Source: Paucimonas lemoignei (GTDB taxonomy: Bacteria > Pseudomonadota > Gammaproteobacteria > Pseudomonadales > Pseudomonadaceae). Taken from it: DNA of 64,000 nucleotides. Location of the stretch: NCBI GenBank assembly GCA_900475325.1, contig LS483371.1, positions 1,674,001 to 1,738,000 on the forward strand, given 5' to 3'. A program made the translations under genes and the position numbers. This document shows, one piece after another, positions 54,193-58,096 of the stretch. The notes under the pieces are model-generated. The model had not been told where the DNA came from. It saw only the letters and a program-made list of their open reading frames with translations, and did not search any database. Numbering within the stretch: the first letter of the stretch is position 1; the number at the start of each line of letters is the position of its first letter.

Positions 54193-54906
54193 ATGGAAAA
54201 ACGTGAAGAACTCTACCGCGGCAAAGCCAAGTCGGTTTACAAGACCGACGACGCTGACCGCTTGATCCTGCTGTTCCGTAACGACACTTCGGCGTTCGAC
54301 GGCAAGCGCATCGAACAGCTGGACCGTAAAGGCATGGTGAACAACAAGTTCAACGCCTTCATCATGCAGAAACTCGAAGCGGCGGGCATTCCCACCCAGT
54401 TCGACAAGCTGCTTGCCGACAACGAAGTGCTGGTCAAAAAGCTCGACATGATCCCGGTGGAATGCGTTGTGCGTAACTACGCCGCCGGCAGTCTGGTCAA
54501 GCGCCTGGGCGTCGAAGAGGGCCTCAAGCTCAACCCGTACACCTTCGAGCTGTTCCTGAAGGATGACGCCAAGGGCGACCCGTTCATCAACGAATCCCAC
54601 GTCGTGGCGTTCGGTTGGGGCACCGCCGAGCAGCTGGTTCGGATGAAAGAACTGTCGCTCAAGGTCAACGAAGTCCTGACCAAGCTGTTCGATGACGCAG
54701 GCCTGCTGCTGGTCGACTTCAAACTGGAATTCGGTGTGTTCAGCGACGGCTCCATCGTCCTAGGCGACGAATTCAGCCCGGACGGCTGCCGCCTGTGGGA
54801 CAAGGACACCAAGAAGAAAATGGACAAAGACCGCTTCCGCCAGGGCCTCGGTGACGTCATCGAAGCCTACGAAGAAGTCGCAAACCGTCTGGGCGTACCG
54901 CTCTAA
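54193..54906 (+). CDS. purC: SAICAR synthase
   Basis: A 237-residue ATP-dependent ligase of purine biosynthesis. [18 protein letters not shown] at the N-terminus, the [18 protein letters not shown] substrate loop (about 89-106) and DFKLEFG (about 175-181) are the PurC signatures. ATG 54193 follows GCGGAG. It ends the housekeeping block just before tRNA-Ser. Confidence 0.97.
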
Positions 54907-54999
54907 GACGGCAAAAAGAGTCGCAAGCGCTTGATAGCACGAAAAAAATCAGCAAAAAGGTTCGCCTTCTGCGATTGAACTGTTATGATGCGCGCCGTT

Positions 55000-55089
55000 G
55001 GAGAGATGCCAGAGTGGCCGAATGGGACGGATTCGAAATCCGTTGTACTGGCGACAGTACCTAGGGTTCGAATCCCTATCTCTCCGCCA
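55000..55089 (+). tRNA. tRNA-Ser (CGA)
   Basis: A 90-nt class II tRNA: acceptor GGAGAGA/TCTCTCC, anticodon stem ACGGA/TCCGT with loop TTCGAAA (anticodon CGA), a long variable arm (GTACTGGCGACAGTAC), T-arm GGGTTCGAATCCC and encoded CCA. Bases 55029-55054 are repeated exactly at 56033-56058, suggesting use as an integration site. Confidence 0.96.
55029..55054 (+). other. Candidate attL: 26-bp segment of tRNA-Ser repeated at 56033
   Basis: This segment covers the 3' part of the anticodon stem-loop and half of the variable arm (core ATTCGAAATCCGTTGTACTG) and recurs without mismatch 1,004 bp downstream in the same orientation. tRNA genes are the usual targets of tyrosine-type integrases, and some cross over in the anticodon loop. 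Confidence 0.6.
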
Positions 55090-55097
55090 TACAAATG

Positions 55098-55131
55098 AAA
55101 GCCCCAGAAGTTATGCTTCTGGGGCTTTTTT
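55098..55131 (+). terminator. Terminator of tRNA-Ser
   Basis: AAAGCCCCAGAAG-TTATG-CTTCTGGGGCTTTTTT, 9 bp after the tRNA. Confidence 0.94.
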
Positions 55132-55208
55132 GTTTTAGCGCGTTTGTAAAATGTATTCTGATGTAGGGTTCTGTTACGGTCCGCCCAAAAATGCCCGAGT
55201 AGCCACAG

Positions 55209-55604
55209 ATGAATATTCAGTATGTTTTGACACATCTACAAGCCCGGTTACCTGATCTACTGGCTGTTTATCTGTTTGGGAGTCAGGCAAGCGGCCATGC
55301 CAATGCTGAAAGCGATCTGGATATCGCCGTGCTCGTGTCGAGCGTCATGGACCCTGTCGAGATATGGAGGCTAGCAGGTGAGATCGCGGACATCGTCGAT
55401 CTGCCGGTTGACTTGGTTGATCTGCGAGCAGCCTCTACGGTCATGCAATATCAGATTATTACCACGGGCCGTCGCCTCTGGGCTAAAAATGAAGCGGTAG
55501 GGGTCTTTGAAGCCTTTGTGCTCAGTGAGAAAACATCACTCGATACCGCCAGGTCGGGCCTGTTAGCGGATATTGAAATTGAAGGGATTGTTCATGGCCG
55601 ATGA
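55209..55604 (+). CDS. mntA: MntA-type nucleotidyltransferase antitoxin
   Basis: A 131-residue minimal nucleotidyltransferase. The active-site pattern G24-S25...D36-x-D38 (FGSQASGHANAESDLDIAV) and the downstream third-carboxylate region LPVDLVDLR (VDLVD) are intact. In the HEPN/MNT systems this protein adds AMP to the HEPN toxin's Tyr and neutralises it. Its last 11 bp overlap the hepT start. It lies inside the 1-kb segment bracketed by the tRNA-Ser repeats. Confidence 0.9.
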   Translation: MNIQYVLTHLQARLPDLLAVYLFGSQASGHANAESDLDIAVLVSSVMDPVEIWRLAGEIADIVDLPVDLVDLRAASTVMQYQIITTGRRLWAKNEAVGVFEAFVLSEKTSLDTARSGLLADIEIEGIVHGR

Positions 55605-56013
55605 CGTGCTAATAAATAAAGCAGCCTCTATCGAGCGGTGCGTTGCGAGGGTGAGGGAAGAGTACGACAAGGATCCCGTTACTTTTGAGCACGACTTCAC
55701 ACGACAAGATGCCGCGATTCTCAATATCCAGCGTGCTTGTGAGGCCGCGCTTGATATGGGACAGCATCTAATCCGGCGCGAACGACTGGGTGTCCCCCAA
55801 AGTGCTCGTGATGTCTTCGAACTGCTTCATCGCGGCGGATGGCTGGAGTCTTCATTGTTGCCGGTCATGAAAAATATGGTGGGGTTCAGGAATATCGCCG
55901 TGCATGAGTATCAGACGCTGCAGTTACCCATAACGGTGGCGATTATCACGCAGCACCTTGGTGATTTTGTTCTGTTCAGCTCGGCTATCTTGCGTAAGGA
56001 TGCTGCCACTTAA
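55594..56013 (+). CDS. hepT: HepT-type HEPN RNase toxin
   Basis: A 139-residue all-helical HEPN protein (DUF86). The catalytic RNase motif R-x4-H-x-Y is intact as R99-NIAV-H104-E-Y106 (FRNIAVHEYQ), in the expected place near the C-terminal third. Family members cleave RNA (tRNA 3' ends or mRNA) until AMPylated on the motif Tyr by MntA. Start at ATG 55594, within the mntA 3' end; a longer in-frame start (55573) is less likely. Confidence 0.9.
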   Translation: MADDVLINKAASIERCVARVREEYDKDPVTFEHDFTRQDAAILNIQRACEAALDMGQHLIRRERLGVPQSARDVFELLHRGGWLESSLLPVMKNMVGFRNIAVHEYQTLQLPITVAIITQHLGDFVLFSSAILRKDAAT

Positions 56014-56032
56014 GTTGGGATCTAACGCAGTT

Positions 56033-56058
56033 GGATTCGAAATCCGTTGTACTGGCGA
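56033..56058 (+). other. Candidate attR: exact 26-bp copy of tRNA-Ser segment
   Basis: Identical to 55029-55054 and in the same orientation; flanking bases on both sides are unrelated to the tRNA. It lies 20 bp after the hepT stop. The enclosed segment contains only the tRNA remainder, its terminator and mntA-hepT, with no integrase. Confidence 0.6.
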
Positions 56059-56208
56059 GGTGGAGTTGCGGCGCGAGAAATCGCAGGCAAAAGAAAAGCC
56101 CGCGATGGGGAGTCAACGGGCTTAAAGCATTAGGAGCTGTGGTTACCATACGGTGCGTCGCGTGAAAAAAACGTGAAGGATGTGCTGGATATAGAGATGT
56201 GACCTGCA

Positions 56209-56478
56209 TTATTTGTCCTGAATCGGGAAAACAAGAACGCGGTAATACGCCACGAGCCATCCGACAACAGTCCAGCCGAGTAGGAGATTCAGCTTGAAGA
56301 TCGAATTGCGAATCTCGACAGCATGGCCAGCGGCGCAAAGGGTAGGGTAGAGATACAGGCTTACTGCGCTGGAAATCAGCAGCACATTGGCCACTGTTGC
56401 CACGGGGCCTTCGCCGCTTTTGCAGAGGTAGCTGAGCGTGAGCAAAAGTATCAGCAGGACCAATCCGAAAATATGCAT
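56209..56478 (-). CDS. Superinfection-immunity-like small membrane protein (Imm_superinfect family)
   Basis: An 89-residue protein with three hydrophobic helices (about 3-20, 26-48 and 63-84). The C-terminal helix FKLNLLLGWTVVGWLVAYYRV fits the N-x-L-L-G-W-T-x-x-G-W signature of the PF14373 superinfection immunity proteins, named after phage T4 Imm, which blocks DNA entry of a second phage. A role in phage exclusion is only suggested. The 195 bp between hepT and this gene hold no frame. Confidence 0.65.
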   Translation of the reverse strand: MHIFGLVLLILLLTLSYLCKSGEGPVATVANVLLISSAVSLYLYPTLCAAGHAVEIRNSIFKLNLLLGWTVVGWLVAYYRVLVFPIQDK

Positions 56479-56759
56479 CGACAGCGCCTTCTAGAATTAT
56501 CTTCGCGCCATGAAGGCGTTCTGATATCACTATGGGCGTGCGCAACAAGAAACCCTGCCTCTAAAGAAACTATCGGGTCGATAGACGTAATGGTAAAGCT
56601 TGGACTTGACTAAGGCGCACTATGATCGACATCGAATCGCCTTAAGACTGCCTACTCTGGTAGAGCAGATACAAAAAGCCCGGCGCTTGGCCGGGCTTGG
56701 ATTCATGCCGCCATCATCCAGGCATGAGAATGGCGAGAGCCCGTAAGGCTAGGCCAAAG

Positions 56760-57323
56760 CTACTTGCTCTTGGCGCTTTTGATGTCGGAGATGATTTGCT
56801 TCGCAATCGCTTGCACCTGCTTCTGAGTCATTGCCGACATGACGCCTTCCCAGGCGGACGACGAAGTGTCATAAGTGCGGCTGCCGATCAGTTTTCCGGT
56901 ACTCAGGTCTGAGAAATTTGCAGTGGAATTCACCCACGCGTTACCCACCATCACGCCAGCGCCGTAACGAGCGCCTGGGGTCAGGTAGCGGAAGTTGGAC
57001 ACATTGACTGTGATGCCCACGCCTTGCGAATTGCCCTGATTCATACTTTGAGCCTCTTTCAGGCTGTAACCCGCATTCACCGCTTCGGCCTTTAAAGCTT
57101 CACTCCAGTCGCTCTTCAGGAGTGGCCAGTCGTCGTTGTGTAAGACCTTTTCGTTGCCCGTGAAACTGACCACAAGGTTCTGTTTTGCAGACTCTTGAAT
57201 GACGAGTGACGCACCGCCTCCTGATTTCACAGACGCGGCGCAACCGCTTAGCATTGCGACGCCAATGGCGCATGAAAGAGCGAAGGGTAGGCCAGATTTT
57301 TTCACGTGAATTTCCGTATCCAT
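56760..57323 (-). CDS. DUF4410-like lipoprotein
   Basis: A 187-residue protein with a signal peptide ending at the lipobox MLSG-C28, followed by a soluble domain of the DUF4410 type (VSFTGNEKVLHNDDW; GVGITVNVSNFRYLTPGARYGAG; DLSTGKLIGSRTYDTS). These are outer-membrane lipoproteins of unknown role, often found near variable regions. The ATG at 57323 lacks a strong ribosome-binding site, but later starts would remove the signal sequence. Confidence 0.7.
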   Translation of the reverse strand: MDTEIHVKKSGLPFALSCAIGVAMLSGCAASVKSGGGASLVIQESAKQNLVVSFTGNEKVLHNDDWPLLKSDWSEALKAEAVNAGYSLKEAQSMNQGNSQGVGITVNVSNFRYLTPGARYGAGVMVGNAWVNSTANFSDLSTGKLIGSRTYDTSSSAWEGVMSAMTQKQVQAIAKQIISDIKSAKSK

Positions 57324-57365
57324 TAAGGTTGATCGGTAACTGTAGGTTGCCCTGGCGCGAGTTTT

Positions 57366-57500
57366 TCACTCGCTCGACACCAGAGCCTCTTCGTATTCAT
57401 TGATGAACTGCGGCAATCCGTAGCCCAATACCGCGCACAGGTCTCGAAGCTGAATCAGGTCCAGCCGACGTTGGGATTGATGGCTGATCCTGGAGCGATT
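57366..57500 (-). pseudogene. Remnant of an XRE-type helix-turn-helix regulator (C-terminal 44 codons)
   Basis: A minus-strand frame without a start codon encodes about 44 residues, including SQRRLDLIQLRDLCAVLG and PQFINEYEEAL. This matches the end of small Cro/C1-type HTH proteins (typically ...ERRLDxIxLxxLCxxLG...). A stop codon lies immediately upstream and there is no N-terminal half, so only a stump remains. It is consistent with decayed mobile or toxin-antitoxin material. Confidence 0.55.
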
Positions 57501-57589
57501 TCATATTGACGGAGGCCAGGTTGCCAAAGCCCGAATTGTTGAGCATTGTGCCAACGCAGAGGCGTACGCCATCCATCAAAGGACACTCA

Positions 57590-58096
57590 ATGCTAATCGT
57601 TTTCAGCGGCCTGCCTGGCACCGGGAAAACCACTATCGCCAAACACCTCGCCGCTCAGACAGGTGCCGTTTATCTACGAATCGACACGATTGAGCAAGCA
57701 ATTCGAAACTCCGGCGCGCTTGCAGGAGACGTTGGGCGCAGTGGCTATCGGGTCGCTAATGAGCTTGCCCGGGATAATCTTCTTCCAGGTCGAAAGGTCA
57801 TCGTTGACTGCGTCAATCCGGTCATGGAAAGCCGGGTCGCGTGGAACGATATCGCCTCAGACTCTGGCTGTCGATTAGTTGATATTCAGGTGATTTGCTC
57901 TGATGTACATGAACACCGGCGCCGCGTAGAAACAAGGACGGCTGATATTCCCGGGCTGACACCGCCTACCTGGGAATCTGTACTGAACCATGAGTATGAG
58001 CCGTGGGTGGGCGCTCCCTTTTGCATCGACACAGCTTTGACGTCTCCTTCGCAGGCAGTGGTGATGATTACCGAACGATTCCTGGCTCATGAGTAA
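57590..58096 (+). CDS. Small P-loop kinase (AAA_33/zeta-toxin-like)
   Basis: A 168-residue protein with Walker A GLPGTGKTT at 7-15, an AVYLRIDTIEQAIR block (kinase lid or substrate-binding region), VIVDCVNPV as a Walker-B-like strand, and RRRVETR as a lid with arginines. This is the layout of small-molecule kinases of the AAA_33 family, which also covers zeta toxins; there is no antitoxin next to it. AAAGGA upstream of the ATG at 57590. The substrate is unknown. Confidence 0.78.
   Translation: MLIVFSGLPGTGKTTIAKHLAAQTGAVYLRIDTIEQAIRNSGALAGDVGRSGYRVANELARDNLLPGRKVIVDCVNPVMESRVAWNDIASDSGCRLVDIQVICSDVHEHRRRVETRTADIPGLTPPTWESVLNHEYEPWVGAPFCIDTALTSPSQAVVMITERFLAHE

Follow-up and report, generated by a model that had tools for sequence, protein, structure and literature searches.

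A mntA-hepT toxin-antitoxin pair between direct repeats of tRNA-Ser(CGA) in Paucimonas lemoignei, a probable residue of an anticodon-targeting element

Introduction

Genomic islands are often found at tRNA genes, and in the Islander collection 2083 attachment (att) sites are reported as centred on the anticodon, against 1836 in the T-stem region (PMC4383910). The locus described here shares with these tRNA-targeted islands an intact tRNA at one end, a same-strand tRNA fragment at the other and an anticodon-centred site. It differs from the islands as described there in being only about 1 kb long, in carrying no integrase and in having a fragment that stops short of the tRNA 3' end. A sequence-only reading of this DNA had placed the crossover in the anticodon region rather than at the 3' end of the tRNA; larger elements do use the same arm, and the position is no oddity, belonging as it does to a populous class (PMC4383910).

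Integration at tRNA genes by prophages is also described for Pseudomonas fluorescens Pf-5, in which the tRNA-Ser attB of prophage 06 includes the anticodon, V and T loops, and of prophage 05 a remnant of 2.6 kb is left at tRNA-Cys, with 84-bp flanking repeats (PMC2647930). Those prophages keep a whole or damaged integrase together with other phage genes, whereas the present locus holds just a toxin pair. Phage PAJU2 and its relatives share with the locus the tRNA-Ser sequence from the anticodon to the terminator (78% identity in PAJU2); in the phages an integrase gene follows, in PAJU2 193 bp on (PF00589). PAJU2 is a full phage, and its integrase gene lies approximately where our locus has mntA. 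The pair itself resembles the MntA/HepT proteins SO_3165/SO_3166 of Shewanella oneidensis in its Pfam families and in the motifs GSX10DXD and RX4HXY (PMC7641770); for SO_3165/SO_3166 no att-bracketed location at a tRNA is given in the main text, where the words tRNA and genomic island are absent. Among the matches listed in a search of the open-licence literature, judged by titles and the starts of abstracts, no description was found of an mntA-hepT pair bracketed by a tRNA-Ser repeat.

Results

The repeat and the genes that it encloses

The window, the whole 64,000-nt stretch of P. lemoignei DNA that was analysed, contains an intact tRNA-Ser(CGA) gene at 55000-55089 on the plus strand, as identified by ARAGORN. 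A repeat search of the window showed that 26 nt of this gene, from the anticodon stem to the variable arm (55029-55054), are repeated with 100% identity and in the same direction at 56033-56058, a spacing of 1004 bp. The genome (one contig of 5,924,472 bases) has no further copy of the 26-mer, and a reversed control pattern had no match in it. An exact match of this length is far too improbable to have arisen by chance, and the duplication proposed earlier was thus confirmed at its exact coordinates. The second copy begins at GGATT, as does the corresponding sequence in a 12-kb element of another genome (G298), and it ends in the variable arm, with the remaining 3' half of the tRNA absent. The locus therefore has the intact tRNA and the tRNA fragment in the same orientation that Islander looks for; the displaced fragment extends to the tRNA 3' end in larger elements and not in copy 2, which is probably the remnant of a right attachment site.

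The copies enclose the 3' part of the tRNA, a terminator-like hairpin (55097-55129, plus strand), mntA and hepT, and nothing else. ORF and Pfam analysis of the interval found mntA and hepT only and no integrase gene, which bears out the earlier description of an integrase-free segment of about 1 kb. mntA (55209-55604, plus strand; PF18765/PF01909, the Polbeta/NTP_transf_2 families) is predicted to encode an antitoxin nucleotidyltransferase with the motif GSX10DXD, and hepT (55594-56013, plus strand; PF01934) a HEPN RNase toxin with RX4HXY in the form RNIAVHEY. The most natural start of hepT is the ATG at 55594, giving an 11-nt overlap with mntA; the ORF listing puts a TTG start at 55573. The adjacency of the two genes, their Pfam matches and the presence of both motifs would place the pair in class I of MntA/HepT systems. 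The best sequence matches among solved structures were the HepT/MntA entries 6m6u and 5yep of the PDB. Separately, MntA (55209-55601) matched the PADLOC candidate defence models PDC-S09 (best E 2.2e-9) and HepT matched none of them, and a small minus-strand ORF to the right of the locus (56209-56478) matched Imm_superinfect (PF14373).

Copy 2 was also considered as a functional RNA. Within 54800-57600 only the tRNA scored above its gathering score and no known RNA family was found at copy 2; a functional RNA structure there was rejected, the sequence folding no better than its shuffles (z 0.82).

Other elements in the same tRNA arm

An exact 20-mer taken from the repeat was found in 328 of the 398 Pseudomonas genomes sampled, 10 of which have it at least twice, namely that of the window and G117, G298, G058, G070, G248, G311, G050, G405 and G349. 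In six of these the same duplication of the anticodon arm frames a larger element, with spacings of 11.6 (G117), 12.0 (G298), 37.3 (G058), 40.1 (G070), 48.4 (G248) and 53.3 kb (G311). In G050, G405 and G349 the copies were on separate contigs, and in G349, where both lie in the same intact start of the tRNA, this looks like an assembly overlap. The far copy in the six larger elements extends to the tRNA 3' end; it starts with GGATT or 2 nt upstream of that sequence. Pfam searches of two of these elements found a 333-aa Phage_integrase protein near the tRNA in G298 and a Phage_integrase ORF at the same place in G117, and two stretches with the same att structure were found in one IMG/VR contig. 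The repeat sequence is thus found near integrase genes in G298 and G117. tRNA-Ser(CGA) is a busy integration site.

Short segments between tRNA-Ser(CGA) and a displaced 3' end of the same tRNA were found as well: 1.7 kb with an AlgX-like protein (L276), 2.7 kb with an acyltransferase (L245), 3.0 kb with PAAR and HNH proteins (L267) and 3.5 kb with a PIN protein (L251). No integrase was found by Pfam among the ORFs of at least 80 aa in these four segments (12 of 12 ORFs searched), and the absence of an integrase is therefore not unusual at this site. A 6.4-kb segment (L268; 2 of 8 ORFs searched) has a Phage_integrase gene, and a sixth displaced 3' end (L271) was found with 4 mismatches; the controls gave no hits in the 126 loci, a set that contains some genomes fetched twice. 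By eye, the terminator region 3' of the tRNA in G168 (L160) resembles that of IMG/VR contigs at tRNA-Ser, which hints at a past prophage in that genome.

Carriers of the pair at tRNA-Ser and tRNA remnants behind hepT

From 337 GTDB genomes encoding a relative, 80 hepT-bearing loci were kept, and in 13 of the 80 a tRNA-Ser(CGA) gene lies on the same strand no more than 2.5 kb upstream. A hepT match at E <= 1e-40 was obtained in 42 of the 398 genomes of the genus sample, and of the 30 whose loci were returned, 15 (the window included) have the tRNA in the locus. mntA-hepT is thus a frequent neighbour of tRNA-Ser(CGA). Among 100 further tRNA-Ser loci drawn from those listed, 96 matched the tRNA pattern, none had the full pair and one (L200) had a hepT fragment; this set left out genomes already taken, known carriers among them, and is not an estimate of prevalence.

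The pairs at tRNA-Ser share a conserved box that precedes mntA. In the window the box, CTGTTACGGTC (55171-55181, plus strand), starts 38 bp before mntA and is possibly a promoter; no match to a sigma-70 consensus was found in 54990-56200. With at most one mismatch, the pattern CTGYTACGGTC starts 38-41 bp before mntA in 15 of 78 pairs (control 1 of 78). Of the 14 tRNA-Ser carriers examined 13 have it, the other two pairs with it being L045 and L046, and the remaining 62 all lack it. Because the box is common to them, the tRNA-Ser pairs may form one element lineage, as this upstream signal suggests, and a single clade for all of them was not rejected in the tree comparison (p-AU 0.44 with L048, 0.12 without it). 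A separate mntA-hepT clade (L051, L053, L056, L058, L062-L064 and L066) has neither the box nor a tRNA within 2.5 kb of hepT.

In two species the carriers retain a piece of tRNA behind hepT. In P. maioricensis (one genome, loci L043 and L132) a decayed tRNA fragment running from the anticodon arm to the 3' end lies 27 bases past the aligned end of hepT. Its score is 22, the maxima of 200 shuffles for each of the two retrievals of this genome being 14 and 15. The DNA past the fragment is 81% identical to the sequence that follows the tRNA terminator in G128, a close relative of the window genome that lacks the pair; the orthology of this flank rests on its position, because a second P. maioricensis stretch aligns equally well (82%) to the same G128 region.

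In Pseudomonas sp. ANT_J12 (L060) mntA-hepT lies between an intact tRNA and a displaced 25-nt tRNA 3' end, which is followed by a terminator. Taken by itself the 25-nt match is weak, scoring 15 where the best of 200 shuffles reached 14, and the case is carried by the terminator behind it. This distal terminator matches (77.8-97.1%) the DNA directly 3' of the intact tRNA in 21 of the 126 loci, and the flank past it adjoins the tRNA in L288. The terminator between the tRNA and mntA is of another type, and its nearest matches in the set are all from carriers. The arrangement would be as expected if the incoming element provides a tRNA 3' half of its own and pushes the resident one aside, and ANT_J12 against L288 provides a clearer comparison of a filled with an empty site than the window against G128. 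The ANT_J12 remnant lies in the T arm rather than the anticodon arm, so either the carriers may differ in crossover site or the upstream part of this remnant may have been lost.

No significant tRNA remnant 3' of hepT was found in 24 of the 28 carrier rows, which include genomes fetched twice. Together with the folding result, this makes a conserved regulatory tRNA mimic at copy 2 unlikely. In P. caricapapayae a 94-aa ORF between the tRNA and mntA resembles, by eye, the start of the G117 integrase region and has no Pfam match; if real, the resemblance would fit the decay of a larger element. In P. salomonii a 17-bp tRNA-Ser 3' end precedes mntA (L046:5474-5490), as if a later island had split the tRNA from the pair. 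Two further loci (L061 and L068) have hepT without a recognisable mntA, 3' of a displaced 17-bp tRNA-Ser end, and are possible orphan toxins.

The carriers bear on an alternative in which the window holds a 1-kb non-autonomous cassette, consisting of the tRNA 3' half, terminator, box and mntA-hepT, that was moved in trans by the integrases of resident prophages. The compact integrase-free layout of about 1.0 kb common to the window, P. maioricensis and ANT_J12 speaks for it, as do the box shared by tRNA-Ser carriers of two host groups, the terminator type of the P. fluorescens-group carriers with its nearest matches in other carriers, and the existence of integrase-bearing elements at the same arm. 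Against it, the window genome has just one bracketed unit, and the remnant in the window differs in type from that in ANT_J12. Nor does the genome now contain a known tRNA-Ser integrase. Two of its three PF00589 proteins are XerD and XerC, assigned by NCBIfam equivalogs; the third, a tyrosine recombinase of 345 aa next to ahpC (L299:1015-2052; G000:C1 near 2882263), passes no NCBIfam cut-off, is unassigned and may or may not act on this tRNA. A phage-borne copy was not found in the phage records or in IMG/VR, where none of 11 candidate stretches encodes a HepT relative. Finally, the tree of the pair broadly tracks host groups (below). We consider a cassette moved in trans to be quite unlikely as the origin of this locus.

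Relatives without the pair and the right-hand junction

Two genomes without mntA-hepT, G128 and G168, are the nearest rows to the window in a 22-row tree of two core genes. The sequence-only reading had predicted an empty site in which one copy of the 26 bp joins 55028 directly to 56059. Pair-less near relatives do exist, but the join is inexact: G128 has a full tRNA and terminator and then 396 further bp before homology to the window sets in at 56082. A family-wide search of 298 genomes for further close relatives gave G648, which has a dispersed relative of this flank with homology extending to 56078; no tRNA was present in the 12 kb retrieved with its match. The approximately 100 bp beside copy 2 (56078-56180) are a dispersed repeat, found also at G000:C1:2726676-2726773 (83%) and in G063, G648, G128 and G168.

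What should follow copy 2 is thus missing at the junction (56059-56077): the remainder of the displaced tRNA half with its terminator, and the region that lies beside the tRNA in G128. A later deletion at the right end must be assumed, because copy 2 is without the rest of the tRNA half that a fresh insertion should leave behind. The terminator 3' of the tRNA in the window has the same sequence as that of pair-less G128 and for this reason, unlike that of the P. fluorescens group, is not demonstrably borne by the element. The earlier interpretation of the repeat as the footprint of a tyrosine-type integrase is backed in part, by the other elements at the same arm, the tRNA remnants in two species and the pair-less relatives, and lacks the exact empty site.

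The position of copy 2 at the presumed deletion junction, together with its end in the middle of the tRNA, would also be accounted for if it were templated filler, put in when the ends of the downstream deletion were joined with a stretch of tRNA-Ser as the template. This we regard as very improbable, given that P. maioricensis has a decayed fragment of the same arm at the same place 3' of hepT and that the att copies of the larger elements start at the same bases. Another route would be import of the whole bracketed locus from an unsampled relative, with homologous recombination in purC and in the core genes farther downstream and no site-specific event in this lineage. Exchange through conserved flanks has been proposed for core defence hotspots of P. 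aeruginosa (PMC10250203), and import would account for a right att site that arrived already truncated. No donor was identified among the relatives sampled, however, and the proposal merely shifts the integration event to another lineage; we hold it to be rather unlikely.

History of the pair

A tree of mntA-hepT with 34 rows places P. maioricensis as the sister of the window (93/92). In the core tree the window pairs weakly with G128 (66/59), and P. maioricensis likewise pairs weakly with G168 (89/92). Two gains of the pair, or one gain and two losses, would both fit these trees. Divergence at four-fold sites between the window and P. maioricensis was 64/104 for the pair and 204/649 for five core genes, and the ratio of path lengths read off the toxin-antitoxin (TA) and core trees was about 2.9. 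The higher divergence of the pair is no proof of separate arrival, because ratios of 2.4-3.3 were obtained for three other pairs of hosts (caricapapayae-G397, californiensis-caricapapayae and yamanorum-PTA122608), and it was dropped as a sign of independent acquisition.

These results would also fit an old insertion inherited vertically, in which the pair predates the split of the window from P. maioricensis and later disappeared from G128 and from G168, with the tRNA remnant decayed in P. maioricensis and intact in the window by chance. The sister relationship and the TA/core ratio both agree with such descent, and faster decay in P. maioricensis would be unsurprising, its core branch being about three times longer. 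The scenario requires two losses, however, and 26 neutral bases are unlikely to have stayed unchanged over the span (7-10% by a rough estimate). The pair also moves sideways elsewhere, as seen from the lactis-khavaziana ratio of about 0.6 and from edaphica, which is placed differently in the two trees. We regard old insertion as a serious possibility that falls somewhat short of even; it is compatible with the locus being a residue. The degrees of confidence given to the different explanations overlap, since the timing of the insertion and a route through flanking homology are questions separate from that of residue or cassette.

Discussion

Since mntA-hepT is found at this tRNA in related bacteria too, the case is real and not exotic. 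Of the two origins offered by the sequence-only reading, we regard decay as the probable one: the locus would be an integrase-less residue of an element that targeted the anticodon arm, rather than a cassette mobilised in trans.

Under the favoured explanation, mntA-hepT would have reached this locus aboard an element that entered the anticodon arm of tRNA-Ser(CGA) through recombination of the tyrosine-integrase type. The tRNA would stay whole at the left end because the element carries its own tRNA 3' half and terminator, and the old 3' half would be displaced past hepT to the right end. The integrase and any other genes of the element would then have been lost, either here or in the lineage of a donor, and a module of about 1 kb would have remained, flanked on both sides by an att copy. 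A later deletion would have removed all but 26 bp of the displaced tRNA half together with several hundred bp past it. The pair was probably retained since its loss would be costly; we propose that this is because HepT is an RNase held off by adenylylation by MntA. Several results weigh against this account. No parent element combining the pair with an intact integrase was found in IMG/VR or among the phage and plasmid records at the sensitivities used, and in none of the phage or plasmid records did one place cover 80% of the locus. Copy 2 is shorter than a fresh insertion should make it, most carrier rows show no significant tRNA remnant behind hepT, the remnant in ANT_J12 belongs to the T arm, and the tRNA terminator of the window is that of pair-less G128. 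The broad agreement of the mntA-hepT tree with host groups also leaves room for an old insertion followed by losses.

A broader form of the alternative, in which the cassette enters tRNA-Ser(CGA) of Pseudomonas repeatedly through borrowed prophage integrases and its toxin makes its own loss costly, seems doubtful to us. If it were true, borrowed integrases could be enough for a toxin pair to spread by itself as a non-autonomous unit, and the wide occurrence of HEPN/MNT pairs would be tied to the movement of prophages at tRNA genes. If it is a residue, the locus still illustrates an island reduced to its toxin pair, and tRNA-Ser(CGA) offers a defined site at which such decay can be followed across Pseudomonas, with other short integrase-free cargoes for comparison.
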